From contig JBAIAA010000702.1 of NCBI GenBank assembly GCA_037893245.1, positions 957,938-1,021,937 of the forward strand: DNA of 64,000 nt, in the 5' to 3' direction. Made by a program: the position numbers and the translations under genes. Positions 1-54,186 of this stretch are shown in pieces. This stretch comes from Crossaster papposus (taxonomy: Eukaryota; Echinodermata; Asteroidea; Velatida; Solasteridae). Positions within the stretch are counted from its first letter, which is position 1. The number at the start of each line of letters is the position of its first letter. Below the pieces are notes generated by a model. The model saw only the letters and a program-made list of their open reading frames with translations. It had not been told where the DNA came from and did no database searches.

Positions 1-739
1 TTTTTTTTCTTTTCTTTTTTTCAAAATGGCCGCCCGACACATCTTAATTTGAGTCGTGCATTAAACATGTCACACCCTATCTTCCAAATTAAAATTAAAA
101 CATGGTTCACCCACGATTAAAAACTAAAATTCCTGTGGGTCGATCAAGTATGCACTGTACACAACTACACGTCACACCCTAGCCTTCCTAGAAAAAATAT
201 ATTTCCAGAGCATGTACACAGTGATGCTAAAGTCTAAAATACGATCTTAAAATTGTATTATCTTTAAAAAAAAAAAAATTGTGCTCACAGAATAACCCTC
301 TTGTTTTTTCTTATTATCTCAATGAAGGTACGTCATTTGGTGCAAAAATATAATATTTACTCAACTCTTCTGTACACAACCACTAATATGGTAGCATTCT
401 GCCTCCTTGCCCAAAGTGTTTGTACAAGCTGTGCACCAACCTACAATGTACCAGTAGTCCTACTACTGGGTATCTCCGTGTTAACTATCCATACAATACA
501 TATCAATAGGGTTGGATCGATAGATAAGTTGGGTAACCCTGAATATACTGGATGGTACATACATTTAGATAGGATATTTAGTTTAGTTTTGGCACCGAGA
601 GAGGGAGGGACAATTCAGACAGACAGCAAAAATGTCGTTTTTGGAATTTGCCCGAATGGAGAAAGCTCACTTTCCTACCGGTATCTCAAACAAATGTTCA
701 CATTTTGAATATTAGTTTATGAGTTTGTTTCTTTGACAG
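1..739. other. Sequence upstream of exon 1
   Basis: AT-rich, with homopolymer T and A runs. It should hold the promoter and a noncoding first exon of the tandem-START gene, but I cannot place them. A 135-codon open stretch at 301-708 lacks coding character. A short ATG frame at 629 followed by a GT at 681 cannot join exon 1 in frame. Confidence 0.4.
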
Positions 740-910
740 GTGTTCACCTGCAAATGTGAGAGTAGATATCCGACACGATATATCCCTACCACCATGGCAA
801 TATTATCTGCCATAACTCTACTAGAGTGGGACATTGTAGTCTTTTGGTGTATGGTCACAGCGTCGCTTGTTTTCCTACTAGTATTGCTTGCTACCGTCTT
901 CTTCCAGGAG
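740..910 (+). CDS. Exon 1 of tandem-START gene: start codon and membrane anchor
   Basis: The acceptor tttctttgacag ends at 739 and the donor GAG|gtaagt begins at 911. The exon is open throughout in a phase that joins exon 2. The ATG at 794 has a near-perfect Kozak context (ACCACCATGG), so I take it as the start, with 740-793 as 5' UTR and an unseen upstream noncoding exon. The first 39 residues include about 24 uninterrupted hydrophobic residues (14-37), a signal anchor or single transmembrane helix. Few charged residues flank it, so orientation is undecided. The frame is also open from 740 to 794, so a longer N-terminus is possible. That this exon joins the START exons rests on matching phase and strand only. 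Confidence 0.55.
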
Positions 911-12900: not shown

Positions 12901-15900
12901 TCCAACATGAACAATGATGTGTAGCCGGCCTTAATGATTAAATTTTGGCTGGGGCTTTGTGCTATCCATGCCAGCTGCAAGAATTTTATTAATTTTCTGA
13001 GTCTGAGACACTAATTTGTTATTATTTCAGAAGACAACGTTATTGTTTCAAATTGTTTTCTTACTTGTCCTAAATTATACCACTGCAAACACATTCAAAT
13101 CTCTTGTCTATTATGGTCTATCTGTCATCTTTGTGTTTTTGAACAGTGGAAATGTCAGAATAAAAAAAAAAGAATGGCGGCCATCTTTTCTTTTCGAAAA
13201 CCCTGACGCTAAACATGATTTGTTTAACTTGGCCTTATGGGCACAAAAGCAACCCAAAATAAAAACACATGCACTGTATTTTCAGTGTTGAAAGTTTAAA
13301 AAAGAAAAAGATAAAATATCTCCATTCATAATCGCGCATGCAAATTAAAAATTGGGAGGAGAAAAAGCCAAATCCAATATGTTGAGCATACATGTACCGT
13401 GCATGTATACGTACCGGTAGGTACATGCATGTACGGTACATGTAGAGCAACTTTAACGAACATGCTCCATCTGGTTTGTGGTGTATGTCACCTGATGGCA
13501 ATTGATGGAAATTCCAGCACAATGCTAGAGGCAATTTTCATAACATTCCAAAGCTAATATTGGAATACCATTGCCGTTTTTCAAACCCCCGCTTCGTCTC
13601 TGTCTTTGGCTTCATTCATGCAGTTTGGCAATGGTATTGGAGCCAGAGATGGAGCTCAAGCTACCGGTATATAGGCTTTGGAAAACAACCCTACATGTAG
13701 CATGCCTAGTGTTCTGCTACAATGTAACATGGAGGAAGACGTGATAAAACATGTACAACATAAATACTTCTTACTACTGGTATAGTTGTACCGGTATGTA
13801 CCAGTACATTTACATACCGTATGTTCTTTTCTGAATATCTATCAATTGATTGCACATATGTACACTATATGAATTGTGAAAATGACTCATCCTCATGACT
13901 TGGGGATTTTGAAAAAGTACTTGAAAAGTACTTGTACCGGTACCACAAATAACATTTTCTAACAACAAAATTACACATTACATGTATTTCAAAAACAATG
14001 CAGACAGTTCGGCGCAGAGGTGTACACAATCGTACATGTATGTACTTTTGCACACAAACCTTTATGCACCAAAATGTGACTCAGGACTCGGGAGTTTATT
14101 AGACTTGGACTTTGATGACTCAAATACAAGTCTCAGATGTACATTTATGCTATTTTCCTGAGGAGGTGGGAAAAAATGTATTAGCTTACTCAGGTGGAAT
14201 TCGAACCTTAGACCTCCTGCTTGAGTGCAGAAGTCTTACCATTAGCCCACCAAGCTTGCCAGGCTAGGCTGGCTGGCCAATTTCCTCTTACTCTGGTCTT
14301 GTTTTTGTTCTTCTCTTTTCTCTGATGTAGGACCAAAAGCCCAGCAAATATCACCAACAGCAAAGAGCACTGCAGCTCCTCCTTGGCCAGAAGGTACCGG
14401 TATAGGCTGCATTTTACACATTTTATTTAAAATTTGTAGAAAACATAATGACCTGTCATCACAAAATAAGCGTAAAGTCGGCAAAATCTAAAATTGTGAT
14501 ATGGGTATTTCTAAATTCTGTGGAAACGGAGCTTTCCAATGGTATATAACACTTGGAGGTTTGATACTCAATATTTTTTTCTTAGCAAAACTTCTGACAG
14601 GTCAGTTAAACGATATTTACTATAAAATGCAACCCCCTCAATCCACCCATTCCTGATAATTCAAGCAATTACCAATGTGTATCCTAACTTTAACTGCATG
14701 GCAGATGCACATGTATGCCAATTCACAGAGATGTGTGCATTGGAAGATACACAGGTTTTTGTTTTTTGTGTGCATGATGAACTGCCTTGGGGGATAAACA
14801 AAAGCAAGGGTTAACCCTAAATACCAGTACCCCAAGTTTATAAAACTCCAACTGCAGGTTTTGGCAGGTTTGGTACCAAACATTAGCAACTTGTTGTTAG
14901 ACTTTGTTTGACTCAGTACCAAAGGCCCAGGGAGACCCTGTTGAATTCTGTGAGGTTCATGGCAGAAAGGCATGAGACTTGTAAAAATGTTGGAGTTTGG
15001 GGGAATGCACAGGCATTTATTCGTGGGTGAGCTCAGGCTGGTCACAGCACAGTTCCTGGTCAACTATAAGTGTGATGTGTACACCCTGTGTGTCCCCACT
15101 CAAACACAGCCCAATACACAGAACCATTGGCCAGTTATCACAGCCCTGATCCTAAACACTGAACAATGCACATACCCATCTGTACCAAGTCAATCAAACT
15201 AACAGGTACCGGTAGGTGTTTTTCAGGTTTAGGTTACATGTAGGTTAGGTTCAGTACCAATAATTACTTAACCTGTGTGCAGTTGTTGAAATTTGCCCAT
15301 TTTTATTAGTTAAAATTAGCATTAATATTCCGGTTTTATTTGTTCTCTGTTTCCACCCTGTATTATCAATGTACATGTAGCTTACAAATTTGTCTAATTG
15401 TCTGCAGTTATTACCGATTGAGCCGAGCCTGGGTTGGCAGCTTACCGGGGTCGTCAACAATCTGAGGGTGTGGACCAGGCCTGTATCCACAGCTACTGAT
15501 CGCAGTCAGACTCTCCATGGATGCTGCGCAGCGGTGGATGCCGAAGCTGAGGTATATACACACATGTACTGTCAATGGAACTCCAAAGTCCAACCCCTTA
15601 TGATTGAATGTATCAGTTACCGGGTTTTCTCCTTGCTAGACATCGTTAGCCTCATAGTATTGTTCTGCTGAGCAAGCAATACTTGCTTCATAGCAAGTGT
15701 ACAGTAAACTTCTGTAACCCTCCTATAGTGCAGTTGCCATAGAATTGTCTGACCTTTCAAAACATTTCAAGTTACCTGGACTGCAAGGTTTTGAAAGGTA
15801 AGAAAACTGTCTGACAAAAGGAACCTACAAGTACATGTATGAAAGATTTTGAAAGGTAAAACAACTCTCTGAACAGACTGGTGTGAGAAAAAAATACCTT

Positions 15901-21900: not shown

Positions 21901-24900
21901 GTTCAGTACCATTACCTAATGTGTGCAGTTGTTGAAGTTTGCTAGGTTTAGTATATGCTTTCTAGTGGAGAGCCTAGATGGGTTAGGGTTAAGGTAACAA
22001 AGAACGTCACAATAAAACTTGTTGACATCATGAAATTCACTTTGCATTGGCATGAAGTATTAGCCGGGCTTTAAAGGTAATGCACCAGTACATGTACAAT
22101 GTACATTGTACATGTACGTACATGTAGTATACACCATTTGCAAAAACAAAACTACTGAAATGTTATGACATGTACCTTACTTGAGCTGTCAGAAGCATTT
22201 GGTAAAATCTCGGCACCTGGCATGGTGTGCCGTGCTTTTCAAGAAAAGTTAAATTTTGTATCAATTTCCAAAGACTAATGAGTTGTATTAGATAAGACAA
22301 GTTTCATGAAATTGACTACAGGCCGCTAAAACTTTCAATGAACGCCTTGACCAAGGCTACCATTGTGGCAGAAGCAACTCAAAGGTTGACCTGGGGTCAG
22401 CTTAGTTTACAGCATAGGGAGTGGTCTGTGTATTTTCCAGGTTATATTTAATTTTGTTTCGTCTAAACAGAATCTGGAAGGTAGAACGGGATGGATCGTG
22501 CTGGATGTTTAGTAAGAATGAGGACAGTGTCAAAGCTAGCCACACACCATGGTGCTATTTCTTAATCCAGCCGATACTTGAATGTAAGTCTGATTGAAAC
22601 TCATGAAAGTCAAATTATGTACGGTACCAACTAATCCATAAGATGAAATTTATAAGAGGTAAATTCAATATTGGGGTTTTTGCCCTTCGCTGACACTGTA
22701 TTTAGTGCTGTCTTGAGTGATTATGAAAAGAAGAAAAATACCCAACATTTAAATTTGATCTTCTTTGAATGCATAAACAAATATTTCCACATCTTGTCCA
22801 AACATTTGTTTGCATTTCTCAATCTAATTTTGCAGCATCTGGTAGGAGCGTACTTCACATAATTTCGAACCCCTCAATGGACCAAGCGTCCAAAGACGTC
22901 AGCAAACGCCTTGCCACGCGCCTGGCAGCACTCTGCCAGTACATCAGGCTCGTACAGTTGAAGCTTCCGCCCCTAGCGCACACGACCCTGCAGCACGTCA
23001 TCGACGTGCTGCCTATCTACACAGAAGGGGTTGAGGAGGAGGAATTAATTCAAACGTGGGATGCGGTCGCGGAGAAGCCGCAGCGAAGCAGAATCCCCAA
23101 GGGGAGAAAGCAGGGTTGGGACAGCGGGGAGCTGCCAGAAGTAGAGGCAAGGACAAATGCCCCCGGCCGGTCGAAAGCAAAGCCTGGCCATAAGAGCTTC
23201 TCGCCTGCCGGTAAAGTGAAGAAAACGGTTGCCTCCCGAGGCAGGCGACAAAGAGGGAGGACCTCCAGGATTGGTGGAAGCGGTGGCATGGGCGTTAGCG
23301 TTGCCACTGGTGGTGGTGATGGTATTGGTGACACGGCTTCTTCCTCCAGTGAAGACACAGGCTACTCGGACTGGATGAGCAACAAGGGGAGCCTGGAGAG
23401 AGACGGCAAAGCCCCTGTGGTCATGACCTCTGAACCAGGGATCATGACAGGGTTAATGGATTACATGCTTTGTGATGAGCAGCCGACATCTCTGAAAGGT
23501 TAGCAGGCCTCAACCTTAAGCTTCAGAGGGTCACGGCCACTTGGCCTCAAAGGCTCCAAAAAAGAAAGGGACACCAAGGCCAACCTAAAGGGCACCAAGG
23601 CCATTTTCAAACTGTTATTTGTTCATCCTCGGATCACCACCGCCCCAACTCTCCGAGTTGGGTCACAACGTTAACATTATTTTTAATAATGGAATCAATG
23701 AAAAGGGGCACGACGGCCAAGTGGCCGTAAGGTACCGGTACGTGTTTTTTTAAGGGGCTTCACGGCAATTCGCTGGGGCATCGCGGCAATTCGCTGGGGC
23801 ATCGCGGCAATGGCCGCTGGTGGCTGCTGTAGAGGTTACCCCACACAGTGGCCATTCAATCGCCAATTTCTGAAGTCATAGTTTGTATCTAGTGATCTAC
23901 CATAAACAAGGCAGGGGTACATGGGGAGGGAGAAACTTAGATGCAAAATTATTTGAATGCACTTGCAGACCAAATGTTCATATTTTTCAAAGATGGCAAA
24001 TGTCTGAATAACAAAGTCAAAACATCTTACAGCTGAACAGTACTGATCGCACAGAAAAAGCAATGTTGGGTCATTCTACTAAGTTGAAACACTGTGTCAT
24101 TGTTTTGTTACAGCTTTGCTGTGCATGTTTAAGTGTAACACACAGCATAGACTCGTACAAGCTTTATTTTAGTTACTCTTACCGGAAACTTGTACAAGTG
24201 AATCAGTAGCTATAACAAATTTCATATTGTGTACCCTAGTGCGACACTTGTCAAAACCTATTTTTGTATATATATCCCTTGTAATTATGTCATTACAATA
24301 ATCTTAAAATAGATATACATGTACATGTCACTTTAGTATACCCAGCACGATACAGTATGTGACCTGCTCCCACGAAATCAGAGTAAAGTTGACCTTTTGA
24401 TATTTTGTGATATTAGTTTTTCCAGATTCCTTATATTATTATCTTTAAAATGATATATAATTTTCTGGGTAGGGTACGTATTAATGCCGCGGTTTTTGAC
24501 GTTTAAATATGATAATTTTATCATGATATTTTTATTAATTTTGTTACATTTTACTTCTTTGGTACGCTTTCAAAATTGTATCATGTATCAAATTGTACAG
24601 GCCCGTACGCAGGGGGAGTGCGACGGGTGCGTACGCACCCCCCCCCCCCCCCCCCCCCCCCCAAATTACCAAAAGGTTCAAATTTTGGGGAGTAAATAAT
24701 GGTATTTTGATGTAGAAATAACGGTACTGGCACACACAAATTGTTGGTCCCATCAAGTACAAATTCCCACCCCCCCCCCCCCCCCCCCACCCATAAAAAA
24801 TCCTGCGTACGGGCCTGTTGTATCATGCCAAAACCCAGAAAACAATTCCCCACTGTCAAATCGGCTATTTTCAAATACATGTATATAACTCAATAGCATA

Positions 24901-27900
24901 CCGGTAGCGCGACTTTACGCCGTTTTCATGGGAGCAGGTCACATACATGTATGAGACCGAGGGACTTCCCCAGTCCCCCATACCTATTCACTCTCTAGAC
25001 TATTGTTACCTAATGCACCTTCCTTAAAACCTAAAAAGAATTCCTGAGAAACCACAACATTTCGCAAGCACAATGACTACCACACAAAGGAGGGGGGGGG
25101 GGGGGGGTTCTCACTGTCTCACTGTCTCATACGGTATCTTGCTTGGAATAGTTTGTACAATAAATCTTGCAAAACAACAACAAAATGTAAGAGACGCGGT
25201 ATTCCCTGTTACATCAGAGTCCTCATTCTTTTTTGGAAATATCCAATTTATCAGGAAAATAATGTTCAAGTGATACAAAACTTCTGTCCAACATCCGAGA
25301 CAAATATCAGAGATAAATATTCAAATAATTTATTCACTAGATGGAATGTAACTAGAAATGTAGCAAAATGATACACTTTGTTTCTCATGAAATGACCCAT
25401 AGAAAGCACCCCATCAAATCGGGCTCGGGTCTCGACACCACCAGACACAGCACTCTGATTTCACAGAGCTGCTTGTCGGGAAAACATTGCTCTGCAAGCA
25501 AAACCCTAAGAACACACCTTTTTGGCTGGTACAGTAGCTGTACGTTTACCGTTAACCAGTTCGCGCCGGGATTATTTTAACATCACCGAGCCAAGGCGCG
25601 GGATTATTTTTAATGAAACTCGATCAAAGGCGGGTTCAGGCCGATGGTACCGACAGAAAATTTCGCCCTTGCTCGTGGCGTGTTTATGCGGCATCCGTTT
25701 TGAATCTGGGGAAAACTTTGCGTTTATATACCGGAATTCATCCTCTGGCGCGAACTGGTATAAGCAGATGTATTTTTTTTCTAGCTGTTTTTGTGTGTGT
25801 TAGTCTTTGTTTGGGGTTTTGCTGAATAAGCAGCCCCTTAAAATTAATCAATACTTATAATGTACATTGTAACTGATCCCTAGAAGACCAAAATTACCTT
25901 CATTTTGTTTGTCTGTGTTTGACAGATGGATCAGAGGAGCTGTTCACATTAGCCAATCAGTGCACGGCTGAGCTCTTGGGACAGTCCAATCGGGTTGCAG
26001 CGATCAATGTGAACACCAGTGTGGCTGAGCAGAAGGCTCAGACTGGAGGCTGGTTGTAAGTGGTCTTTAGTATTATTATTTAGCCCTTAGGAAGGTTTGC
26101 TTGTAAGGTCAATGACTAGGTCTGTAAGAGATCAAGGATTATTAGGGGATAATAGTCTGATGGAGCAGTTATACATGTGACGTTGAACACTGGCTAGGGC
26201 TTGGCCACCAAAAATATAGACCGAGGCTGAAGATGAGGCTGTTATTGCTATTAATCCTAACTTTACTGAATACTACAAAATACTACTGGTAGTAAAATGT
26301 AGTATGCAGTACTCTCATCTACTTGTGTGCAATGCCTGTAGTAATGTATAGTATTTGGTACTTCAACCCAAATACTGTACATACATGTAGTAATACCGGT
26401 ATGTACATGTACATGTAGTACTAAGGTTGAATGTACCGGTAGGTTATGTACATCTGAAGAGGACTTTGCAGGATTTGGGATGGTTAGAGTTAAAGATGTC
26501 CATCCCTAGTGATCTTTTTGGCTTTGGAACCACATGGAACCCATTATGCCCTATTTACATGTACAATTCTAAAACCAGAAATCCATCTGAAAAGGGATGC
26601 CGAGGTTGGTTTACTGGCCAAGCCCAAGGGGGGGCGGGGGGCGGGGGGGGGGGGGGGGGGGGGGGGGTGTAGGGTTAATGTATACTCAACTGACTAAGAC
26701 AATTATAAAAGCTTAAGATGACATGGTAATTGTATTATATTCTACATGTATTCACCTCAGCTTCCACTCACTAGCCAAAGATGTTGTGATCCTGCAGAAA
26801 ACCCCAGTCCAGGGAAAGTACTATTGGTAAGTTAATGTTTTAATGAGTTTGCGCCGGAGGACGTATATATCCAAAATATTTTCCAGAGATTAAAAACGGA
26901 TGACGAAAAAACACGACCCCAGCAAGGCCCAATTTTTTTTTTACTATCCACGGATGACGCGTTACTCCGTCAGGCACAGCTGAGTTAAATTTCACAGAGG
27001 ACGTGTATATACACTGCAAACGTTTTCTTGGTTGTTGCGGTTGACGTGTATTTATGCCAAAGGTGACCCGCTAGCGTTTATGGAGGACGGGTATACACGA
27101 TAATGGCATACACAACGGTGAACGTGAATATATGTCGACATTGCCAAGTCTATTCAACACCCTAGTTCCATTGTCTCCATTGAATTCATACGGCCGAGGA
27201 TTATCAGCTGCGTCCAGTAATTCTTGACATTCAAACTTCCCAACTATTGTTACTAAAGCCGTGTTCGCACTGGACTTTTTTGGAAGATTTTACCGAGACG
27301 ATGGTAAAATAAAAAATGGTCAAATGTTACCACTGTTCGCACTTGGACTTTCGACACGGGAAAATTTTACCGAGACCGCGGGAGAAGTAGCCGAGCTGTC
27401 ATTATAATGACTCATGAAGGCGAATGTGATCACAATGCGATGTGCATGCATCAGCGCACGCACCGTAAACAATGCAAAGAGCGCATGCGCAGTGTCTTGT
27501 GTTGCATGGCCTCACACTAGGGGGCCGGGTGTACGTTTTCCTAAGCTGCTTTTACCGACCCGCGCTGTTCGCACTGGACTTATCGTCTAGGGAAAAGTTA
27601 CCCGGGAAGTTTTCCCGGGCAGCAGTTGGCCAGTAAAAGTAACCACTGGACTCTGGAAAAGTAACTAAGAGGAATACGTCCTAGGCTGTCCGTACTGGAC
27701 TTAAAATGAGAAAAGTACCCATCGTCTCGATAAGTTTTATAAAAAAGTCCAGTGCGAACAGGGCTTTAGTCTCCTTTGAATATCTTGAAAGGTTGCTTTT
27801 CAGCTGGGCTTGCAAATATTTGTATATATTACCGCGTACGTCTTTAATGAAAACATTCTCTATAGTCCTATGTATTAATACCTGTATGCACTGTTTACTG

Positions 27901-30900
27901 CAGTGCATCGAAGGGGAATATAATAATAATCATCCTTTACTCGAAGCTGGTGTGCTGATTTGCGAAGGACGCGGCTACAACGTAGTCGAGCCGCTGGCAC
28001 GTAAAGGTGCTTATGGCAGCCGGCCACATCGTCTCATATACGACTACGGAGCACAGCCATAGATCAAAAGCGTTTGATTTTTCCAGAGGGAGGAAAACCG
28101 AAAGACCCGGAGAAAAAACCTCGTGGCACAGGAGAGAACCAACGCACAACTCTACTCACATATGGTCCGGGCCGGGAATCGAACCCGGGCCACATTAATA
28201 ACAGGCGAGCGCTTTACGCACAAGCCACCCATGCTAGTGGCGGTCACCGCTGCGGTTTCCTATAGAAATTGTACGTACATGTACACTAGCACATTCCACG
28301 CTCAGTCTTAGACTTTCTGTCTCCCAAGGAAAATCCTCTGCAGAGTAATTTCTTTCCCAGTCTTCTGACGTGTTTATATCTCCCCCGACTGACAGGACAG
28401 AAACTGCGCATTTCATTGTCCTTTAATTTAAACAAAAAAAACGATCGCATGTCAATATTTTGCACGTCAAAGTATAGTGAACATCGAGCAATAACCACTA
28501 CTGAAAACTGCAATGTCTTTCGGTAAACATTGGGTAACTTCATACAGTGTTTCAAGAGATGAAGTCATTTATCATAGGTTTATTGCCCACTTGCTCCTTT
28601 CAGCTTCCTTGGGAAAGGCGTCATCCGTGCACCCCCGGAAGACATCTTCAAAGCTGTGAAGAATCCCAGAACCCGGTTTATCTACGACAACATGCTAAAG
28701 GTACAGAACCAGCCTCAGGCTTAACTCTGAGGTTTCTGAATACCTGCATTTTTATTATCACTTCATTTCTTTCATATATGTGAGGCGTTCTGGCAAAATG
28801 AGACGGAACTGGGCACAGGGCATAGTGGAGAAAACTGCCAAATAATTAATAATTTTCAGATTTATTTATATTTGTAACCTTTGGTATGCCTGCTAACTCT
28901 ATTTTGTAAAAAGAAATAGTATGAAAGTTGTGGAATAGTAGTGTTTTCAAGGAATTGTTTTTACAATTTTCCATATCACACGTACAAAACTCGAAACTCA
29001 AAATGCCTTTTTCTCAATATTTTACTCTTGCGACATGTTGAGGAATGCGAAATGTAAACAGCCATAACTTGTCAATGAAATGTCAGATTGGAGCGCAACA
29101 AACAGCATTGTCCAGTTCCGTCTCATTTTGCCAGAACCCCTCACATAATGTGACCCACGCCACAAAAAGGGGTATTACACTGGGTAGCTAGACTTTTTTT
29201 AGTGCCGGCTGTTTTCGGGCTGCCGGTAGTTTCAGCTCATTCAACTGCAAGATCGAGGAGCGTGCTCGCGCTCGCGGGCCAACTGAGTAATGTATACTTG
29301 TGTGCATCAGTGCATGTATATACATGTGTGTATAGTGTATACCTTTGCAGTTAATGATGAATGTTTAAGTTCTTCCTGAATAAAGTTATGTTAATGCAAG
29401 AAATAAGAAATAAAATACCTTCTTTACAGCAACTTGACTTTGTATCTCCTCTTCTTTAAGGATGCCCACAGCTTAACAGCTTTGTCAAAGGGGAAGTGTT
29501 CAATTGAGGGGCCTTCAAGTGCGATGCGCATGATGGAGTCTAGTGTGTCCTCTGCCATCCTGTTTCGGATCACGCTCTTAATCAATTTCATTCTCGAAAA
29601 ATCGCGTTCACAGTCAGCTGTGTGAGGAGGCAGCACTTTGTAAATTTGTGCCAGTTCCGAGAGTGTGGGGAAAATGTTTATGCTGGACTCTGCTGCCAGC
29701 TTGTTGACAAACTCATCCACTTTAAGCTTGTAGTCCTGTGCAGTGTGTGCATAGTGAATAAAGTCCCTCAGTTCACTTAGTGCCTGTTCTTTGGGAAGAG
29801 CAAACCTGTCTACCAATGTCTCTAGGTGCTTGAACAACTTCTGATGATGATCACCTGCAGTAGGTTTGGGATCTGTCTGGGCTGTTGTATCAGGCATGTA
29901 CAATGTAGCTTCCTGGATCAAATAGGCAGCTGAGTGCAGACATGATTTCAGTTTCTTTAAATCTGTTTTCCAGATTTTCTACTAAGCTGCTTATGAATAT
30001 GTTCTTTGTTTTCTGATTGAATTTTAATGTTTCTTCCTCAAGACTAAAGCCTATGCTTCACAGTGACCTTATTGTCCTCCAGTTTATCTACAATAGCCTT
30101 GAGGCTCGTTGTCATATCTCTACTCTCTTGTGCTTTCAAAGATGCCACAGTGGCTGCTACTGACATGTTCATATTTGCCATCTCAATCTTGGATGTCTGC
30201 AATACTCTGCTCAGTCTATTGACAGTAGGTAGAACATCACACAAAAGAAGCAGTGTTGCTAGGAAATCAAACTTGGTCATCAGATGGAACAGACCTGTTG
30301 CACGTATATCAGCTCGTTCTTCCCCTTCACGCTCAAGACTGATGAGTACACTTGGTAGGATATTCTTCAGCTTTACTGCACACTCTCCTAGAGCCAACCA
30401 CCTTGTTTCTGCAGGATTAGTGACTTTTCCTGATTCCTGAAGAGTGCTATGCAACATTTGCTGCACTGCTGACAATCCCCTATCCCTCACAGAACTCCTG
30501 TGATAGAAAGCATACAGTTGCTTCAGTGTTGTCTTGAACTGTCGAACTGAAGGAATTTTATCTCCTGCATGAGACACTGCCAGGTTGAGTTTATGTGCAG
30601 CACAGTGTTGTCCAACTGCCCTTGCAATGGGTCTATCTAGCTCATACTTGTCCGTTTGCTTTTCGACTTGTCTTTCAATTATTTTTTTCACTGCCCCATT
30701 TTTCTTTCCTGTCAGCACTGCTGCACCGTCTGTGCCAATGCCCCTCAGCTTTGCATACTGCAAGCCATTGCTTTCAATATATCCCGTCACTTTCTGGCAT
30801 ATGTTGTCAGCATTGAGAGTCACGAAACAATCACTGGTATCTTTGGCAGCAATGGCATGTTCCTCACCAAGCTGAATGTTCTCCTCCGCATCACTGTCGG

Positions 30901-33900: not shown

Positions 33901-36900
33901 CCCGGTCATTACTGCGTTATAATGACCGGGTCCTCAGACTGTTATTCCCTAAGTAAAACATACAAATTTAAGAAGTATTAGAACAAAACAATAGATTTTA
34001 AGGACACAGAAAGAATAACAATTAAGCAATAGAAAAGACTTTTAAACTTGGTTAGCCATGATATTTCTTTTCTTTAGAATAGTTTTTACGTGTTCCTGTA
34101 TAAGAATCTGGTTTTTTTTTTATAAATCCAATTTAAAATTGTTGGGGCCTATTATCAAATTATTCATTCTCTATTATCTTAAACTTGTTAATCTGTGCAT
34201 GCCTATGCTAATAAAAGGTGTCTGCTTAATCAAAGGAAAATTGATGTTTGTAAAAACATACTATCTTCTAATATAAATAATAAAAATATTTTCTGGATAA
34301 TTCGCTAATACTACTATCTGGTATATTTTATCTCTCTTTGTAGAAAATGGACATCATTAAGGAACTTAATGACAGAGTTCAAATTGGTAAGTACTGGTGG
34401 TGATTCAACATGTTCTAAGAGAAAATGTTGCATTGTCATTGTGTTAAGTACACTAGCCTCCTTCAACCTTGATTTAAAACTTAAAGGAAAACTTAAAGGC
34501 AATGTATACAACATTTGCTTGTGCTGTGAGCTAAGTTATCCCTATCCCTGCTACACGCAGCACATCAGAGAAAAAAAGTCTGGTGCACTTTAATGCATTC
34601 TCTGCTGTCAACACAAGTGCATAAACGACCACAGTCTCGGACTACTCAGAGCTAGTTGAACAATACCAGAGATGGATTCTGCTGCGTTTGGGAACTACAG
34701 ACTCTGAAGCAGTTTGACCTTACGATTTTTGACCCGATGGATTTTGCTGCACTGTTCTATCACGTCATTTGGATATCTGCTGCACTTTGCTGGGTGTAGC
34801 AGGGTGTCTAGCCAAAATACACTGGATGGTTATAGGGTTAAAGAACAATTTTGGAAGCACCTTAGACATACAACATGCATGTGTTTCTTGCATAACACTA
34901 TCGCACCTTTTCCCAGAGGTTGCAATTTTAGGGTTAATTTAGTAACTATTTCTTCATGCAAATTTGTTTTGTAGTTACTAATCATGGTTTTTTTGGGGGG
35001 CGGGTCGTATTTATCATTGTGCAGTTTATGCAGTTCATGAAGTCCCTCAGCTTCTGAGAAAAGAATCCAGAGATTTCTGCCTTCTACAAACTAGCAAAAT
35101 TGAGGTATTTATGGAATTGTTTAGTTCTACCCTAACCATGCACAATCCAATATAGATTGTCAATATTAGACTTAAGTTTTTTACAATTTGTAAAGGTAAA
35201 AAAAGTGCACTTTTCACTAAAAATAACAAGTTAGTTTTTGTATCTTTTTAAGAGGAATAGAATGTTGGCTAAATATGTTCCCAAGACAAATTCATTAAAA
35301 TTTGAGTAAACGTCAAAATCCGGTTCAAGTGACTTTGTCATACACGCGCATTCATAATGTACCGTATTACTAGTGCCCATTGGCTAAATATGCTGTAGCA
35401 CGTTAACTTGGTACCAATGGTTCAAGTTGAAGTAACATTACACTTTTGAACTGGATAGTTAGTCACAGGAATATGTTAAGAATCGTCAGAGAAAACATCC
35501 ATAGTAACTTCTGCCTTTTTCTTAAAGGGGCATTCCGTCCTGGAACCACCAAATTGGGCTACAAAACGCATATCGAAATGCTATTATATGGAAAGAGCAT
35601 TTAAAAGTAGGATACAAATGTTCATACAACCACCCTTTAAAAGTTTATAGTTTTATGTTACTCTTGTAATGGAGTTATTATTAGTGTATTAGTGCTGTGT
35701 CTGTGTGTACATTGAATCTTCTGCATGAAGGAGATTCATGGCTGTAAATATGTATGTGACAAAATGTCCGCTGCAGGGTTTTGTCCGAGATTTTTACAGG
35801 AAGAGTAAGACATCAGGTTAGCTTCCTTTCAACCAGGGGCCAAGTTCATCTAGCTGCTTAGTACAAACCTTTGCTTAGCACAAACAAGTCTTGCTCAGTA
35901 AAAACAGGTTACCAGCAAAAACTCCACATGCTTTTCATGCTGAGCGAAAACCAGCTGAATACCAGTCACAAACAATATACAATACATCACCTGAAAGTTT
36001 GGTTTGTAACCCTGTTTTTATTTTGGCCAAGGAAGAATGTTCATTTTCATGTATAAGCAATTTGTTGTGCTTAGCAGCTTCCAGTAATTGGCCCCAGACT
36101 ATTGAAATAGGACGTTAAGTAAACAGTCAAAAACATGAAATTTGCGGGTATTTTAGGACAGAATGATCCTTTATAATGCCTGACTTTTCAAACTCCTCCA
36201 CGCACCAGGGTTCGTCACACATTGTAGCCTTCACATCGGTTAACATGGCCGAGTGTCCCCCATTAGATGCCATCCCCCGGGCCCACGTCCTTCCCAGCGG
36301 TTGGATTATTGAGCCTGTGGTTGACAACAGAGGATCATGCTTCTCCATGGTCACCTACATGGTGCAGGCAAGTATTGCAATAAAAAAAAAAGGGGGGAAG
36401 TGCTGTATTTTGTGTGGTTTTTTTTATATTATTATTTCAAGTCTTGCTAATATTATTGTATAGAGAGAAGACAATGAGAAAAGGGCACAGTTTGTAGAGG
36501 TGGGAGGAAAACCCCAGAAGAATATCCTGTGGAAAGCCCACGGAATCAGGCAGGTCTGAAAACCCAATCCACATATTGGCCAAGGTGGAATTTGAACCCG
36601 GGTCATAGTGGTGAAAGGCGAGGACAAAACCGCTACACCAACCCGACTCCCAATTTGCTGTAGTGTTGGTTTGGCGCCATTTGGCATCTACAATGTACAT
36701 GTATGTAGGACATCACCAGTTAATTTTAATGCTGACACTAAATGGTCCTTTGTGAATGCCAGTGGAGTGGATTTGGCACCGCAGTTTTTGCAGTGTAGTT
36801 GTATTTCAATGAAATGTTAATGACATTTCTTATGAATTTTTATGACATTCTCTAAAATTGACCAATGTAATTGTTATGATCTCTTATTTACTTATTTTGG

Positions 36901-37343
36901 TGAATTTTTTTCGTACACATTTCGATTGAATGTTATAATGAATTGTCAACCGTTGTAATTATTATATATTTTAAACAATTTCATAATTTGTTTACCTGTT
37001 TGTATAACTCTGCAATTTGGCTTATTCATGTGAGATTTTAAAACAATAAACCAGTAATAAATGATTGAATGAATAATGAAAATTACAACCTTGCTTTTTA
37101 TTGGTATGTTAGTTGTCACGTGATCGCCAACCCACTGCAGCTTGGCATGTGGGTCCCAGTAAGACTTCGAGACTTTGAGACCACGAAGGTTTATTCTTAC
37201 ATTCCTTTCTACCTTATATTTATTTCTTACAGGTGAGCATAGGTGGTAAGAATGTGCCGGCAAGCTTCATTCATTTCCTGTCCAAGCGTGTGCCTCTCAG
37301 TGTCGCCTATCTTCGATTCTTCGTTGAGGCAGAGAACATGTAG
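794..37343 (+). CDS. Membrane-anchored tandem-START domain protein (12 exons, 677 aa)
   Basis: The exons are 740-910 (coding from 794), 15408-15551, 20203-20513, 22471-22583, 22836-23498, 25926-26055, 26761-26826, 28604-28700, 34344-34386, 35025-35104, 36209-36367 and 37233-37343. Every junction keeps frame; the coding sum is 2034 nt. Residues 14-37 form a hydrophobic helix. Residues about 48-267 read as a divergent START domain (EWD motif, an R-x-W-x5-DG strand, YFLIQP). Residues 270-449 are an acidic-to-basic, Gly/Ser-rich linker. Residues 451-675 are a second START domain with FLGKGVIRAP, SRDFCLLQ, LPSGWIIEP and the YMVQV strand. START domains bind a lipid or sterol in a helix-capped beta-barrel. 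By family knowledge the protein should transfer or sense lipid at a membrane; the ligand and organelle cannot be read from the sequence. The second START resembles STARD9's C-terminal domain from memory. An extra exon inside intron 1 is possible, because START1 lacks its usual N-terminal helix. Confidence 0.85.
990..1716. repeat. Direct duplication flanking the minisatellite
   Basis: The segment 990-1096 (GGTCATGTCAAAGGTCAAGT onward, through the ..TTTGAAAACTTGAAG block) recurs at 1612-1716 with moderate divergence, on either side of the 19-bp array. A third, weaker copy lies at about 3540-3610. Confidence 0.75.
1102..1614. repeat. 19-bp minisatellite (ACAATATTGTGACCTGTAT)
   Basis: About 26 near-identical copies of ACAATATTGTGACCTGTAT, with four shortened units where CCC replaces the CCTGTATA step (near 1255, 1325, 1475), so there is a coarse higher-order pattern. 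Each unit contains the palindrome ACAATATTGT. The minus strand reads open in all three frames only because 19-bp units without stops repeat. The array sits between two copies of a 100-bp direct repeat. Confidence 0.95.
1716..3079 (+). mobile_element. TTAA-type MITE, copy A, carrying a palindrome insertion
   Basis: The ends read TTTAAAGGTA..GATACACCATT and AATGGTGTATCC..TACCTTTAA, inverted repeats with a TTAA border as in piggyBac-like elements. Without the inner palindrome (1991-2943) the element is about 400 bp and aligns with the copies at 3078-3449, 37401-37704 and 47570-47782. No coding capacity. Confidence 0.75.
1991..2943. mobile_element. Long foldback palindrome (arms about 450-467 bp)
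   Basis: The arm 1991-2457 is almost perfectly the reverse complement of 2496-2943, around a 38-bp loop (2458-2495). Outer ends are CATGTGGGTCTTTCCAT and ATGGAAAGACCCATG. The arms differ by only a few changes plus a short indel, so it is young or kept uniform by conversion. There is no open frame. It is inserted in MITE copy A. Confidence 0.9.
3078..3449 (+). mobile_element. TTAA-type MITE, copy B
   Basis: Complete 370-bp copy with ends TTTAAAGGTAGTATACACCA and TGGTGTATACTACCTTTA. It abuts copy A, sharing the TTTAAA at 3078-3083. The body contains the family's markers: CTGTCCAAAGTTTTAGAATC, an AACCGGCGTCGAGCAG block and TTTTGCTGGATGCCCAGAAT. Confidence 0.85.
4321..4725. repeat. 17-bp minisatellite (TTTTTTTCCTGCGGTAC)
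   Basis: About 23 copies of TTTTTTTCCTGCGGTAC with T-tract length varying from 5 to 8 and a GGTAA subtype at 4545-4590. This is the left arm of the foldback element. Outer units read CCTGTGGTA and inner ones CCTGCGGTA, so the homogenised variant is internal. Lysine-rich minus-strand and cysteine-rich plus-strand frames are artefacts of the repeat. Confidence 0.95.
4841..6740. other. Central region of the foldback element
   Basis: 1.9 kb, AT-rich, between the two arms. The longest frames are under 80 codons and match nothing I recognise; there is no transposase motif. It may be captured host DNA or the decayed core of the element. Confidence 0.5.
6745..7660. repeat. Right-arm array of the foldback element, 105-bp modules
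   Basis: Dozens of TACCACAGG or CCTGTGGTA cores. From 7040 the array has a longer period: a block with ACCATTTTGTATGA recurs near 7060, 7182, 7286, 7398 and 7499, about 100-120 bp apart, with two alternating subtypes (GATATCCAAGTAAATACC or GTATCTAATTTTATTACC). The left arm lacks this longer module. Confidence 0.88.
8090..8490. repeat. Dispersed TAGTAGTA-rich repeat
   Basis: Blocks such as GGTACTTAGTATTTTGTAGC and CTACTAGTAGTAAAA, with GCATTGCACACAAGTCAGTG, recur in inverted order at 26255-26430. It is bounded by AACCCTAACC-like sequence. Noncoding. Confidence 0.6.
8600..8715 (-). mobile_element. TTAA-type MITE fragment
   Basis: ACCATTTGCAGATATTGAAA followed by TTACTACCGAATTATTAAGA is the reverse complement of the 3' part of the 3078-3449 family. 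Only this end survives. Confidence 0.7.
9330..9602 (-). mobile_element. TTAA-type MITE, degraded copy
   Basis: From TTATTTGAAAGTAAATAATG through CAGGTCAGTTAAACAATACA to TTCACCCATTCCTGATAATT, this matches the reverse complement of the 3078-3449 element with several small insertions. Terminal repeats are missing. Confidence 0.7.
9603..10590. other. Intron 1 sequence without a recognised feature
   Basis: AT-rich, with scattered GTACATGTAC palindromes and no coherent frame or repeat end. Confidence 0.4.
10595..11795. mobile_element. TIR element with GTGTGAACG / TTTTAGCTAAAAC ends
   Basis: Both flanks carry repeats of ACGGTTTTAG-like and GTGTGAAC motifs in inverted orientation (10610-10790 against 11670-11795: GGTGTCTGAACACTTGGTG, CTAAAACGCTGTGTGAACAT). 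The 0.9-kb middle is GC-richer and lacks a recognisable protein. A nonautonomous DNA element is the simplest reading. Confidence 0.5.
11800..12960. other. Noncoding stretch with a GC-rich triple repeat
   Basis: 12397-12620 is CpG-rich and holds three degenerate modules of about 90 bp, each with a GACGGGCTCCC core (12400, 12494, 12586) and an AAACAGG or AAACCGG partner. A 118-codon frame at 11787-12143 is cysteine-bearing but unrecognised and has no supporting context. Confidence 0.45.
12960..14160. other. Intron 1 sequence without a recognised gene
   Basis: AT-rich with several ACCGGT and TACATGTA palindromes (13395-13445, 13785-13820). No frame with coding character. Confidence 0.4.
14180..14265 (-). 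mobile_element. tRNA-headed SINE fragment
   Basis: On the minus strand it reads GGTGGGCTAATGGTAAGACT as an A-box-like start and GGTTCGAATTCC as a B box, 50 bp apart. The acceptor and anticodon stems do not pair, so it is a tRNA-derived SINE head rather than a tRNA gene. Confidence 0.6.
14590..14690 (-). mobile_element. TTAA-type MITE fragment
   Basis: GACAGGTCAGTTAAACGATA, then CACCCATTCCTGATAATTCA and CCAATGTGTATCCT, is the reverse complement of the 5' part of the 3078-3449 family. Confidence 0.75.
14810..15260 (+). repeat. Dispersed repeat shared with 21620-21980
   Basis: About 230 bp from the CAACTGCAGGTTTTGGCAGG block to GTTCCTGGTCAACTATAAGT recurs at 21650-21870 with roughly 85-90 percent identity by eye. 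Neither copy has visible terminal repeats. They lie in introns 1 and 3 of the same gene. Confidence 0.75.
15408..15551 (+). CDS. Exon 2: start of first START domain
   Basis: The acceptor tctaattgtctgcag ends at 15407; the donor GAG|gtatat starts at 15552. It is 144 nt, 48 codons, phase 0 at both ends. It encodes residues 40-87, including GWQLTGVVNNLRVWTRPV, the typical opening START pattern (W-x2-hydrophobic, then a V-W-x-R strand), and the AAVDAEAE strand-helix turn that runs on into exon 3. Confidence 0.8.
15745..16150. repeat. Locally duplicated GAAAGGT-rich repeat
   Basis: The block TTTTGAAAGGTAAGAAAACT..CTGTCTGACAAAA..GGTGTGAGAAAAAA occurs at 15788-15900 and again at 15930-16020. TTTTGAAAGG recurs about ten times in both orientations. 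Confidence 0.75.
16330..16565. repeat. 16-bp tandem repeat (GACGCCTCATAAATTC)
   Basis: About eight degenerate units of GACGCCTCATAAATTC between 16436 and 16562, with two inverted relatives at 16343-16400 (CCTCATAAGCCTGA, TATGAGGCGTTAGATTTATG). Confidence 0.8.
16691..17251. mobile_element. TIR MITE, TAAGCCCTGTTCGCACTGGA family
   Basis: The ends TAAGCCCTGTTCGCACTGGA and AGTCCAATGCGAACACGGCT are inverted repeats. A related 515-bp copy lies at 27254-27768. Internal TTTTACCGAGACGATGG-like motifs also repeat inverted. The 170-codon minus frame over it is not a gene. Confidence 0.85.
17260..17835. other. Intron 1... exon 2-3 intron sequence, nothing recognised
   Basis: This lies in intron 2. It is AT-rich, with scattered TACATGTA palindromes and no frame or repeat end seen. 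Confidence 0.35.
17840..18010 (+). mobile_element. tRNA-headed SINE (GAGTCGGGTTGGCACAGTGG)
   Basis: The A-box-like GGCACAGTGGTATACTTTCC and B-box-like CCAGGTTCAGTTCCC are followed by a body ATCCACATGTGGATTGGGTT..TGATTCCGTGGA. A minus-strand copy at 36462-36660 has the same head and body. Confidence 0.75.
18020..19195. other. Intron 2 sequence without a recognised gene
   Basis: AT-rich with a possible diverged repeat near 18230-18740. No coding frame with splice support. Confidence 0.35.
19200..19446. mobile_element. TIR MITE, AACCAGTTCGCGCCGG family
   Basis: The ends AACCAGTTCGCGCCGG and CTGGCGCGAACTGGTT are perfect inverted repeats of about 15 bp. Relatives lie at 25554-25760 (inverted), 58234-58477, and a fragment at 26848-27000. 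They share CAAAACGGATGACGC and CTGAACCCGCTTCGGATCGA. Confidence 0.9.
19812..20125 (+). mobile_element. tRNA-headed SINE (CCTTGGACAAGGCACTTT type)
   Basis: The A box region GCCGTAGCCTAGTGGTCTAG and B box GTGGGTTCGAATC are followed by TGTCCCCTTGGACAAGGCAC and CTCTCCACCCAGGAGTAAAT, the body of a SINE family I recognise from sea urchin. It ends shortly before exon 3. Confidence 0.8.
20203..20513 (+). CDS. Exon 3: core of first START domain
   Basis: The acceptor ends ..aaactag at 20202; the donor is AACAG|gtaaag at 20514. It encodes residues 88-190 plus two bases. DILAAVQNITKQQEWDPSIT matches the START helix followed by the conserved E-W-D. A stretch of about 40 residues after it (from VTLSSFIYPNPN to the TRLIRKP segment) looks like an insertion relative to compact START domains. 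It ends in the strand EIVINR, which continues into exon 4. Confidence 0.88.
21200..21600 (+). mobile_element. tRNA-headed SINE, about 400 bp
   Basis: The head has TTGTGCGTAAAGCGCTCTTA and a doubled GGCCCGGGTTCGATT B box. The tail runs through GGCTGTGCTCCGTAGTCATA and CGTGCCAGCGACTCGACTAC to an ATTATTATTATT end. A minus-strand copy lies at 27925-28250. Confidence 0.85.
21620..21980 (+). repeat. Dispersed repeat, second copy of 14810-15260
   Basis: TTTTGGCAGGTTTGGTACCA through GTTCCTGGTCAACTGTAAGT aligns with the copy in intron 1. Confidence 0.75.
22471..22583 (+). CDS. Exon 4: first START domain, central strands
   Basis: The acceptor gtttcgtctaaacag ends at 22470; the donor GAAT|gtaagt is at 22584. 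It encodes residues 191-228. The piece RIWKVERDGSCWMFSKNE is the classic START strand pair (R-x-W-x4-DG-x-hydrophobic), and TPWCYFLIQPILE sits where other START domains have GWLIEP. The second exon base set makes a split codon with exon 5 (T|CA). Confidence 0.88.
22836..23498 (+). CDS. Exon 5: end of first START domain and long linker
   Basis: The acceptor tctaattttgcag ends at 22835; the donor AAAG|gttagc is at 23499. It encodes residues 229-449. The first 40 residues complete START1: a GRSVLHIISNP strand and an amphipathic C-terminal helix with KRLATRLAALCQYIRL. The other 180 residues are low-complexity: an acidic cluster (EGVEEEEL), then many K and R (KGRKQG, KVKK, RGRRQRGR), then glycine-rich and serine-rich runs. 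This looks like a disordered tether between the two START domains. The exon is more GC-rich than its surroundings. Confidence 0.9.
23499..24358. other. Intron 5, first part
   Basis: A degenerate CACGGCCAA / GGCAATTCGCTGGGGCATCG repeat lies at 23530-23830 (the latter duplicated at 23765-23810). The rest is plain AT-rich DNA. Confidence 0.45.
24359..24943. mobile_element. TIR MITE, GTGACCTGCTCCCACGAAAT family, with nested element
   Basis: The ends GTGACCTGCTCCCACGAAAT and TTTTCATGGGAGCAGGTCAC are inverted repeats, and the next GAGTAAAGT / ACTTTACGCC also pair. Relatives: 42185-42528 and, in a GTGACCTGTCACCACAAAAT subtype, 58540-59169. It is interrupted by the element at 24601-24816. Confidence 0.88.
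24601..24816. mobile_element. Nested C-tract MITE (GCCCGTACGCAGG ends)
   Basis: It starts GCCCGTACGCAGGGGG and ends with its complement CCTGCGTACGGGC. Two poly-C tracts (24639-24661 and 24769-24788) lie inside. It sits in the MITE at 24359-24943. Confidence 0.85.
25554..25760. mobile_element. TIR MITE, AACCAGTTCGCGCCGG family, second copy
   Basis: Same ends as 19200-19446, with the body in the opposite orientation (ATTATTTTAACATCACCGAG near the left end here, near the right end there). Confidence 0.88.
25926..26055 (+). CDS. Exon 6: start of second START domain
   Basis: The acceptor gtctgtgtttgacag ends at 25925; the donor TGGTT|gtaagt is at 26056. It encodes residues 450-492, beginning DGSEELFTLANQCTAELLGQ, an amphipathic helix like the N-terminal helix of START domains, and ending with GGW just before the first strand. 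START1 lacks such a helix in the exons found. Confidence 0.88.
26255..26430. repeat. Dispersed TAGTAGTA-rich repeat, second copy
   Basis: ATACTACAAAATACTACTGG, then TTGTGTGCAATGCCTGTAGT, matches 8380-8470 in reverse complement. Confidence 0.6.
26636..26668. repeat. Poly-G tract
   Basis: Nearly uninterrupted run of G with single C and T breaks in intron 6. Length is likely polymorphic or assembly-limited. Confidence 0.9.
26761..26826 (+). CDS. Exon 7: second START domain, first strands
   Basis: The acceptor tgtattcacctcag ends at 26760; the donor TATTG|gtaagt is at 26827. The 66 nt encode FHSLAKDVVILQKTPVQGKYY, with split codons at both ends (TT|C and TG|C). The pattern fits the START element W-x2-hydrophobic-x3-K-D-V-x-hydrophobic. 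Confidence 0.86.
27254..27768. mobile_element. TIR MITE, TAAAGCCGTGTTCGCACTGG family
   Basis: The ends TAAAGCCGTGTTCGCACTGG and CCAGTGCGAACAGGGCTTTA are inverted repeats. The body is inverted relative to 16691-17251 (GCCGAGCTGTCATTATAATG against CATTATAATGACAGCTCGGC). Confidence 0.9.
27925..28250 (-). mobile_element. tRNA-headed SINE, minus-strand copy
   Basis: Reverse complement of the 21200-21600 SINE: GAAGGACGCGGCTACAACGT, GGAGCACAGCCATAG, and a GGGAATCGAACCCGGGCC B box near 28180. Confidence 0.85.
28604..28700 (+). CDS. Exon 8: second START domain, FLGKGVI segment
   Basis: The acceptor cttgctcctttcag ends at 28603; the donor CTAAAG|gtacag is at 28701. It encodes residues 515-547: CFLGKGVIRAPPEDIFKAV then RTRFIYDNMLK. 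It matches the START beta-strand, omega region and helix, with R-x2-Y-D standing in for the usual R-x-E-W-D. The donor is weaker than the others in this gene. Confidence 0.9.
28781..29143. mobile_element. TIR MITE, TGAGGCGTTCTGGCAAAATG family
   Basis: The ends TGAGGCGTTCTGGCAAAATG and CATTTTGCCAGAACCCCTCA pair over about 33 bp (through AGACGGAACTGG). Relatives lie at 61002-61300 and 61324-61760. Confidence 0.92.
29180..32657 (-). mobile_element. Decayed hAT DNA transposon in intron 8
   Basis: The transposase region (29424-31795, minus) lies between hAT-like ends: CTGGGTAGCTAGAC at the left and, read inward, CAGGGTTGTAGCTAAGCTGG at the right. Both ends carry GCCGGC-rich subterminal motifs. 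No matching 8-bp target duplication remains that I can see. It lies antisense to the tandem-START gene. The right flank includes a TACATG microsatellite (31933-31972) and a perfect 34-bp palindrome at 32222-32255. Confidence 0.75.
29424..31795 (-). pseudogene. hAT transposase (ZNF862/KIAA1586-like), frame-broken
   Basis: A 583-codon frame (31795 down to 30044) begins MQSSMTRFLKRKEDK. It shows a TTF/BED-like zinc knuckle (YCRCCQK, then HAESVEH), the DDE/RNase H-like segments FSLMFDETTDCSVIEQMVIH and LRGIGTDGAAVLTGKKNG, and a helical insertion domain. The C-terminal 165 codons (29921 down to 29424) carry the hATC dimerisation domain (FPTLSELAQIYKVLPPHTAD, then CERDFSRMKLIKS). Two frame changes lie between these parts, near 30045 and 29915, with homologous sequence readable between them in the third frame, so it is a recent pseudogene or has unrecognised splicing. 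Cut-and-paste transposase by family. Confidence 0.9.
32658..34343. other. Intron 8, distal part
   Basis: No gene seen. It contains a MITE remnant (33300-33360, AAGTAAATAATGATTCTGGG), a perfect short hairpin (33883-33948), and a local duplication: about 50 bp at 33260-33310 (ACAAATTTAAGAAATATTAG) recurs at 33961-34005. Confidence 0.5.
33883..33948. repeat. Perfect 29-bp hairpin with 8-nt loop
   Basis: 33883-33911 is the exact reverse complement of 33920-33948, loop CTGCGTTA. Arms begin GGAATAACAGTCTGAGGACC. It could be a miniature palindromic element or a transcribed hairpin in the intron. Confidence 0.9.
34344..34386 (+). CDS. Exon 9: 43-nt microexon of second START domain
   Basis: The acceptor tctctctttgtag ends at 34343; the donor CAAATTG|gtaagt is at 34387. 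It encodes KMDIIKELNDRVQI plus one base. It joins exon 8 in phase 0 across a 5.6-kb intron that contains the hAT element, and completes its last codon with the T of exon 10 to give valine. Confidence 0.85.
35025..35104 (+). CDS. Exon 10: second START domain, RDFCLLQ motif
   Basis: The acceptor ..tcattgtgcag ends at 35024; the donor GAG|gtattt is at 35105. With the carried base it gives 27 codons: VYAVHEVPQLLRKESRDFCLLQ and six more. The S-R-D-F-C motif is a hallmark of START domains (P-R-D-F in many members), which makes this short exon convincing. The flanking splice sites are ordinary and slightly weak. Confidence 0.88.
35522..36177 (+). mobile_element. TTAAAGGGG-family MITE with nested GGGGCCAA MITE
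   Basis: The left end TTAAAGGGGCATTCCGTCCT and the right end TAGGACAGAATGATCCTTTA are imperfect inverted repeats. The body matches 56853-57339 (CAAATTGGGCTACAAAACGC, AAAGTAGGAT). It is split by the element at 35836-36095. It fills most of intron 10 and ends 31 bp before exon 11. Confidence 0.8.
35836..36095 (+). mobile_element. GGGGCCAA MITE, copy 1
   Basis: Ends GGGGCCAAGTTCATCTAGCT and CAGTAATTGGCCCC, with inner GCTTAG..CACAAA repeats that also pair. The body has AAAACAGGTTACCAGC and CTGAATACCAGTCACAAACA. It is the most frequent MITE family in the window. Confidence 0.9.
36209..36367 (+). CDS. Exon 11: second START domain, LPSGWIIEP motif, GC donor
   Basis: The acceptor ..ctccacgcaccag ends at 36208. 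The 53 codons (residues 589-641) include SSHIVAFTSVN, the acidic loop AECPPLDAIPRAHV, and LPSGWIIEP, the most conserved START motif. The best donor is CAG|gcaagt at 36368, a GC-AG intron; it yields YMVQV, matching the family strand. A GT donor six bases upstream (ATG|gtgcag) also keeps frame but would lose V-Q. A MITE ends about 30 bp before the exon. Confidence 0.9.
36462..36660 (-). mobile_element. tRNA-headed SINE, minus-strand copy
   Basis: Reverse complement of the 17840 family: AAAACCCAATCCACATATTG, a TTTGAACCCGGG B box, and CTACACCAACCCGACTC at the head. Located in intron 11. Confidence 0.8.
37233..37343 (+). CDS. Exon 12: C-terminal helix of second START domain and stop
   Basis: The acceptor tatttatttcttacag ends at 37232. 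The 36 codons plus TAG at 37341-37343 encode VSIGGKNVPASFIHFLSKRVPLSVAY and ten more residues, the amphipathic C-terminal START helix that closes the lipid pocket. The expected 3' UTR contains a TTAA-type MITE copy from 37401. I see no convincing AATAAA close downstream. Confidence 0.9.
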   Translation: MSIGGKNVPASFIHFLSKRVPLSVAYLRFFVEAENM

Positions 37344-37400
37344 GAGGGTTTAAAACTCCTAGCACATCTACAGAAAGTTTGGTATTAATATTTATGCAGT

Positions 37401-37704
37401 TTAGGTAGGATACATCATGGGTAATTGTTTGAATTATCATGAATGGGTGAATTTGAGGGGTTGTATTTTATACTAAATATCGTTTAACTGACCTGTCCGA
37501 AGTTTTACAATCATGGATGCTGATAAAAGCAAGAAAAAATGCGTTTTTATGTTCTTGGTTTTTTTCGCAAGAATTACTGGATATCTAGCGCAATCATTTT
37601 GCTGGATGCCTAGAATCATTATTTACTTTCAAATAAGTAAGATTTTTCTTCATAATTCGGTTTTAAAATGTTTTATATTTGCAAATGGTGTATCCTACCT
37701 TTTA
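37401..37704 (+). mobile_element. TTAA-type MITE in the presumed 3' UTR of the START gene
   Basis: TTAGGTAGGATACATCATGG at the left and GGTGTATCCTACCTTTTAA at the right. It is a 300-bp member of the 3078-3449 family with an internal deletion. Confidence 0.85.
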
Positions 37705-51501: not shown

Positions 51502-51534
<33 letters not shown>

Positions 51535-53823: not shown

Positions 53824-54186
53824 AGGACGGCACGACTGAATGCGATCCGTGTTGAGAAATGTGTAGTGTGAATGCACGGCGGCCCTAGCCGGATTGAACG
53901 TTACACGGTTCACTAGCGGCTGGTTCGCGGCATGAACAGTGTGAACGTTGCGTCTCCGTGATCCGTGTCGAAAACAACTCATGCTGAACCGGGTTGGAAC
54001 CGGGTTGGTTTCAACACGGTTCGAAACTGAGATAGTGTGAAAACGCCTTAAGTGACCCAAACTGATGAAGATGGTGGTTAAGATAATATTTGCGCTTAAC
54101 GATGATTATTTGAGAAATTGTAAATAAACCAGAAGTTTCATTGTTTATTCTATCCACTTGCCTCAACTGCCTGACTCAGTTATATT

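Follow-up and report, generated by a model that had tools for sequence, protein, structure and literature searches.

The window analyzed here, a 64,000-nucleotide stretch of Crossaster papposus DNA taken in full, raises the question of whether a single gene encodes a membrane-anchored protein with two START domains in tandem, as a preliminary description had proposed, and, if so, how such a protein would act. This DNA is best read as encoding a membrane-anchored protein that carries two START-type domains, and the proposal is partly supported, the two domains being unequal. With confidence slightly better than even, we favor one gene for an N-terminally anchored protein of 695 residues, in which a diverged START-like domain (domain 1) is followed by a linker and by a canonical, presumably lipid-carrying START domain (domain 2).

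Splice-site and codon-use scoring, together with reading of the sequence itself, gives a model on the plus strand that runs from the ATG at 794 to the TAG ending at 37343 and encodes 695 amino acids. The preliminary description had ten exons with consistent phases; the phases hold, all junctions being in frame, and the number of exons rises to 13, as follows.

Exon 1, 794..910, plus strand: residues 1-39; strong Kozak ATG (ACCACCATGG); hydrophobic segment
Exon 2, 14331..14393, plus strand: phase 0/0; residues 40-60; domain 1, whose first helix probably starts here
Exon 3, 15408..15551, plus strand: residues 61-108; GW...VVNNLRVW, a START-like stretch within domain 1
Exon 4, 20203..20513, plus strand: residues 109-211; DILAAVQNITKQQEWDPSI; middle part of domain 1
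Exon 5, 22471..22583, plus strand: residues 212-249; second half of domain 1, weak profile match
Exon 6, 22836..23498, plus strand: last part of domain 1, where a long helix is predicted (as far as ~22957), and the linker (residues ~291-470)
Exon 7, 25926..26055, plus strand: residues 471-513; N-terminal part of domain 2
Exon 8, 26761..26826, plus strand: part of domain 2 (START)
Exon 9, 28604..28700, plus strand: part of domain 2 (START)
Exon 10, 34344..34386, plus strand: part of domain 2 (START)
Exon 11, 35034..35104, plus strand: SRDF core motif of domain 2, recognized by sequence reading
Exon 12, 36209..36367, plus strand: domain 2; the donor after it is of the GC type (GCAAGT)
Exon 13, 37233..37343, plus strand: C-terminal helix of domain 2 and the stop codon TAG

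The reading frame is kept across 12 of 12 junctions, an agreement that is partly built in because four boundaries, in exons 4, 8, and 11, were fixed with phase considered. Eleven introns are of the GT-AG type and one, between exons 12 and 13, is GC-AG. The donors of exons 2, 9, and 11 score below 5 (4.7, 4.8, and 4.9, respectively), and skipping of exon 2 is conceivable in view of its weak donor and symmetric phase. Exon 1 ranks first among 45 initial-exon candidates (17.7, the best one at any other place scoring 11.8) when all ATG-to-donor stretches of phase 0 upstream of exon 2, within 100-14300, are scored with nested ATGs counted apart; its donor is also the best in that interval. In-frame stops sit directly at the acceptors of exons 2 and 4, and for exon 3 a stop lies ten codons upstream and is followed by no ATG, so domain 1 needs a start farther upstream. 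Beyond the stop codon, the next polyadenylation-type signals are AATAAA at 37928, ATTAAA at 38015, and AATAAA at 38112. Two further candidates were rejected: an alternative acceptor for exon 8 at 26775, which is incompatible in phase with exon 7, and an open stretch near 35777-35816, since the SRDF motif is already supplied by exon 11.

Translated unspliced as whole frames with stops set to X, the three frames of 700-15701 had no Pfam matches, and one of the three frames of 22500-37501 returned START, at exon 12, the other two returning nothing; the unspliced exon at 36209 matches START at 5.8e-4 (19.7 bits, cut-off 22). One raw unspliced frame compared with the PDB by phmmer produced chance rows only, and an Rfam search had no matches.

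Other features were noted in the window. Intron 9 holds, on the minus strand at 29427-31822, the remains of a hAT-type transposase in two open reading frames (ORFs), one with DUF4371 and a C17orf113-type zinc finger and the other with a sub-threshold hAT dimerisation match. At 1995-2941 there is a near-perfect long fold-back with nested arms of 325, 69, and 59 nt and 97-99% complementarity. Tandem arrays lie at 4335-4712 (17-bp unit, 23 copies), 50380-52062 (20-bp unit, 84 copies), and 54185-54478 (26/88-bp units). Separately, a minus-strand ORF at 59431-59760 matches the C-terminus of the ARF7 effector protein below threshold (E value of 0.0021, 19.1 bits against a cut-off of 27).

Judged by its sequence, domain 2 is a canonical START domain. 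It matches the Pfam START model (PF01852) at 50.8 bits against a cut-off of 22, over model positions 8-192 of 207, with an envelope of residues 500-681; the E value of 1.8e-13, for a match that covers seven exons, flatters the gene model because exon ends were picked partly by phase and by the START pattern. The preliminary description had placed a second START domain at residues 451-675, and this match bears out its identity; its limits are placed here at 471-695. When compared with the PDB by phmmer, domain 2 finds STARD6 (5.8e-8), a carotenoid-binding protein (2.3e-4 to 0.013), STARD4 (0.0022 to 0.055), and StAR (0.12), and a profile built from domain 2 and fragments of three of these chains finds 32 PDB sequences at E values up to 1, the best 23 of which are START chains from many subfamilies, the other nine (E values of at least 0.034) not being START. 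Searches of non-animal collections, namely viral contigs and prokaryote genomes, found no relatives of domain 2. In the alignment, the columns of Asp332 and Arg351 of STARD3 (numbered by our own count), which we take to be sterol contacts, hold Glu and Gln in domain 2, Thr and Val in STARD6, and Tyr and Ser in STARD4; with Glu and Gln at these positions, a sterol ligand for domain 2 is a guess.

Domain 1, spanning residues ~45-290, is a more difficult case. The preliminary description had called residues 48-267 a START domain, and profile searches split over this claim: Pfam is negative, a profile-profile comparison is positive for residues 68-130, and the limits have shifted. Among 24,736 Pfam models searched at E values up to 10, there is no START row for residues 1-339, so that the whole-domain cut-off of PF01852 is not reached and the full protein has a single stretch matching Pfam START, located in domain 2. 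In Pfam, domain 1 is matched solely by Polyketide_cyc2, at residues 103-134, and below the cut-off of that family both in the whole protein (E value of 0.012) and with residues 1-339 alone (0.21); Polyketide_cyc2 belongs to the Bet v1-like clan, the same clan as START.

Comparison of profiles gave a clearer signal. Aligned by hhalign with four START sequences including domain 2, residues 68-130 fall in register (P of 0.012), and the observed score is reached by 1 of 300 shuffled sequences. Against a larger START profile that excludes domain 2 (58 sequences, comprising four PDB fragments and 54 ORFs from 33 prokaryote loci), residues 68-130 match profile positions 13-72 of 170 with a score of 29.3 (HH P of 5.8e-4), a score attained by none of 300 shuffles (maximum, 27.9) and by none of 528 decoy ORFs read in six frames and cut to 246 amino acids (maximum, 24.0). 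With domain 2 added to this profile, the score rises to 31.8, again above all 300 shuffles. The matched segment reads GW...LRVW...EDILAAVQNITKQQEWDPSI. In its first half (residues 68-130), and there only, domain 1 is thus statistically recognizable as START-like. That domain 1 has an unrelated fold and resembles START by chance would agree with its phmmer search of the PDB, which returned no START chain and had a penicillin-binding protein at 0.05 as its best row; we nevertheless consider this very improbable, given the failure of every decoy and shuffle to reach the score of domain 1 and the fact that the unbiased Pfam scan also indicates, below threshold, a lipid-transport family (Polyketide_cyc2).

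As a START-like sequence, the second half of domain 1 is only suggestive. The middle of the domain, encoded by exon 4, contains extra sequence relative to START domains and, taken alone, does not match the START profile; the C-terminal piece is off register when domain 2 is left out of the profile and in register when it is included, with no useful score. When the second half is aligned with the C-terminal half of the profile, local mode sees it equaled by 11 and by 12 of 200 shuffles, and global mode by 19 and by 160 of 200. Single-exon structure models, too poor to prove a fold, predict for exon 4 two helices, each followed by a pair of strands (pLDDT of 53.8), and for exon 6 (pLDDT of 49.7) a long helix at exon residues 16-42 (pLDDT of ~70) followed by shorter helices.

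These features bear on an alternative that keeps the single gene, in which domain 1 is a decayed START-like or Bet v1-type scaffold or protein-binding module without a lipid pocket, and the whole is in effect an anchored single-START protein on a STARD3-like plan. The missing Pfam START match, the weak second half, and the extra mid-domain sequence all fit such decay, and in yeast Ysp2 the first StART-like domain was reported to be dispensable, its deletion having no effect in the assay used (PMC4463742), a result that lends no support to two working pockets. The START core that is in register in the first half of domain 1 is harder to reconcile with it, as are the secondary structure around EWDPSI (helix and strands) and the long helix predicted at the C-terminal end, which fit the START layout, if at low pLDDT. 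We regard this alternative, which overlaps with one branch of our best explanation, as possible and short of probable.

The two domains do not look like recent copies of each other, since their introns lie at different positions and no pairwise similarity rises above shuffled sequences: the score of domain 1 against domain 2 was equaled or exceeded in 65 of 300 shuffles, and a recent internal duplication was rejected on these two grounds. For comparison, 12 of 300 shuffles scored as high as domain 1 against STARD4, none of 300 against the carotenoid-binding protein, and 170 of 300 against STARD6.

Whether the two domains belong to one gene depends largely on the interval between exons 6 and 7. 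Because exon 6 encodes the last part of domain 1 as well as the linker, domain 1 would be severed if the gene were split between exons 5 and 6. Directly after the exon 6 donor comes an in-frame TAG (23502), and a transcript ending there would therefore encode domain 1 alone. The locus could thus be two neighboring genes, an anchored START-like protein terminating at this TAG and an independent START gene downstream. Besides the position of the TAG next to the donor, this would be in keeping with a polyadenylation-type AATAAA at 25159, no other A[A/T]TAAA site being present in this interval, and with the rarer T at position +3 of the exon 6 donor (score of 6.8). The downstream gene would, however, lack an obvious start: exon 7 has no in-frame ATG, its upstream frame being open back to 25877, and exons 7-13 offer no Met before exon 9, midway through domain 2. 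An initial exon of the right phase, at least 21 nt long and with a donor scoring at least 5, is found nowhere in 23504-25900. Looser limits admit short or weak candidates, namely one, three, and seven with donors of at least 5, 4, and 3, respectively, the best being a 19-nt stretch at 24450 with a donor of 6.4, against 6.8 for exon 6; these donor limits are not strict ones, as 3 of the 12 donors of the gene model itself fall below 5. The end of exon 6 and the start of exon 7 are, moreover, both of phase 1. On this evidence a separate downstream START gene is disfavored relative to a single gene, and we consider two genes unlikely and infer a single transcript.

In the single-gene reading, the protein opens with a hydrophobic stretch at about residues 14-37 (833-904), where the Kyte-Doolittle mean over a window of 19 is 2.84 at residue 14, in agreement with the N-terminal membrane segment of the preliminary description. 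Net charge is -2 on its N-terminal side and +2 on its C-terminal side and, by the positive-inside rule, such flanks suggest a putative signal anchor with both domains in the cytosol. The linker (residues ~291-470) had been described as disordered and basic. Basicity is confined to its middle (residues 331-430, net +10), the linker overall having a net charge of +2; in the single-sequence model of exon 6 there is no secondary structure from about residue 329 (model residue 79) onward, with block pLDDT values of 39-52, and the first part, up to about residue 328, is modeled as helix with low confidence. No clear FFAT-type motif was found in the linker, where one loose pattern match at residue 304 lacks an acidic tract.

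The topology, lipid carriage, and shuttle geometry that we infer would be as follows. The N-terminal signal anchor would insert the protein in a membrane and leave the remainder exposed to the cytosol, with the diverged START-like domain 1 close behind it (from about residue 45, the first matched residue being 68). A linker of ~180 residues, basic in part and with probable flexibility from about residue 329 onward, would join domain 1 to domain 2 and could let domain 2 reach a second membrane, as has been proposed for yeast Ysp2 (PMC4463742) and for tethered STARD3 (PMC6071762). Domain 2 would then carry lipid between two membranes, that of the anchor and one facing it at a distance that the linker can span, its cargo being perhaps sterol, given that its nearest solved relatives are STARD6, the carotenoid-binding protein, and STARD4. 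Domain 1, having lost most of its conservation, might bind a second lipid in cis or serve as a regulatory or scaffolding module. A stronger version, a non-fungal and probably animal heterotypic two-pocket shuttle in which domain 1 loads or senses one lipid while domain 2 exchanges another, is a tentative proposal that we hold to be somewhat doubtful.

STARD3 combines a multi-pass MENTAL anchor with one START domain, and STARD4, STARD5, and STARD6 are single-domain cytosolic proteins. The present protein resembles STARD3/MLN64 in placing a START domain on a membrane-tethered protein and differs in having one hydrophobic segment, no clear FFAT motif, and an additional START-like domain; no MENTAL row, which would mark it as STARD3 (STARD1/3 subfamily), appears in Pfam. 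Nor does the 695-residue model have a Pfam row for kinesin, whose motor is N-terminal in STARD9/KIF16A. With the STARD4/5/6 group it shares sequence proximity, STARD6 being the nearest solved sequence to domain 2 and STARD4 among the next, although the two presumed sterol-contact columns set it apart from both. STARD3 is described as a START protein tethered by membrane segments, with an FFAT motif, that transfers sterol at contact sites (PMC6071762).

The closest parallel in overall design is fungal. Yeast Ysp2/Lam2 and Lam4 are described as ER-anchored proteins with two StART-like domains (PMC4463742; PMC12705765), and for Ysp2/Lam the anchor and the second domain are reported there to be needed for contact-site function, with reach to a second membrane proposed for Ysp2 (PMC4463742). 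The likeness lies in two StART-type domains on one membrane-anchored protein. Lam proteins, however, combine StART-like (VASt) domains with GRAM/PH domains, whereas Pfam at E values up to 10 gives only START and Polyketide_cyc2 here, without the GRAM and VASt that define the LAM/Ltc/GRAMD1 group, and the anchor of Ysp2 is C-terminal whereas the hydrophobic segment here is N-terminal. By analogy, the protein would most likely be a tethered lipid-transfer protein that works like yeast Lam2/Lam4 or STARD3 and is a member of neither group.

A tether with two lipid pockets had been put forward as possibly undescribed. The principle is known from yeast (PMC4463742), and an animal protein with two START domains is not reported among the literature matches listed. 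The 15 mammalian START proteins fall into six subfamilies, and no two-START member is mentioned in the passages seen of the paper describing them (PMC3634439); "two START" is likewise absent from the part of PMC3790746 consulted, and the phrase "two START domain" appears once each in two plant papers. The gene itself may well be annotated elsewhere, as our comparison covered collections other than animal protein databases. If the reading is true, the Lam design of yeast would have an independent counterpart, an anchored protein carrying two START-type domains, in which one could test what makes two pockets per tether useful, be it counter-exchange, loading, or sensing. Should domain 1 instead be a decayed pocket, it would exemplify a lipid carrier turned scaffold.

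Paired START sequences were also observed in the bacteria sampled. Within the phylum of Salinimicrobium, 77 of 296 genomes have START matches, exactly two in 60 of these 77. Two START ORFs occur in 21 of the 33 START loci sampled (30 from the phylum of Salinimicrobium and three from another phylum), so that START genes lying side by side in pairs may be a theme among bacteria.
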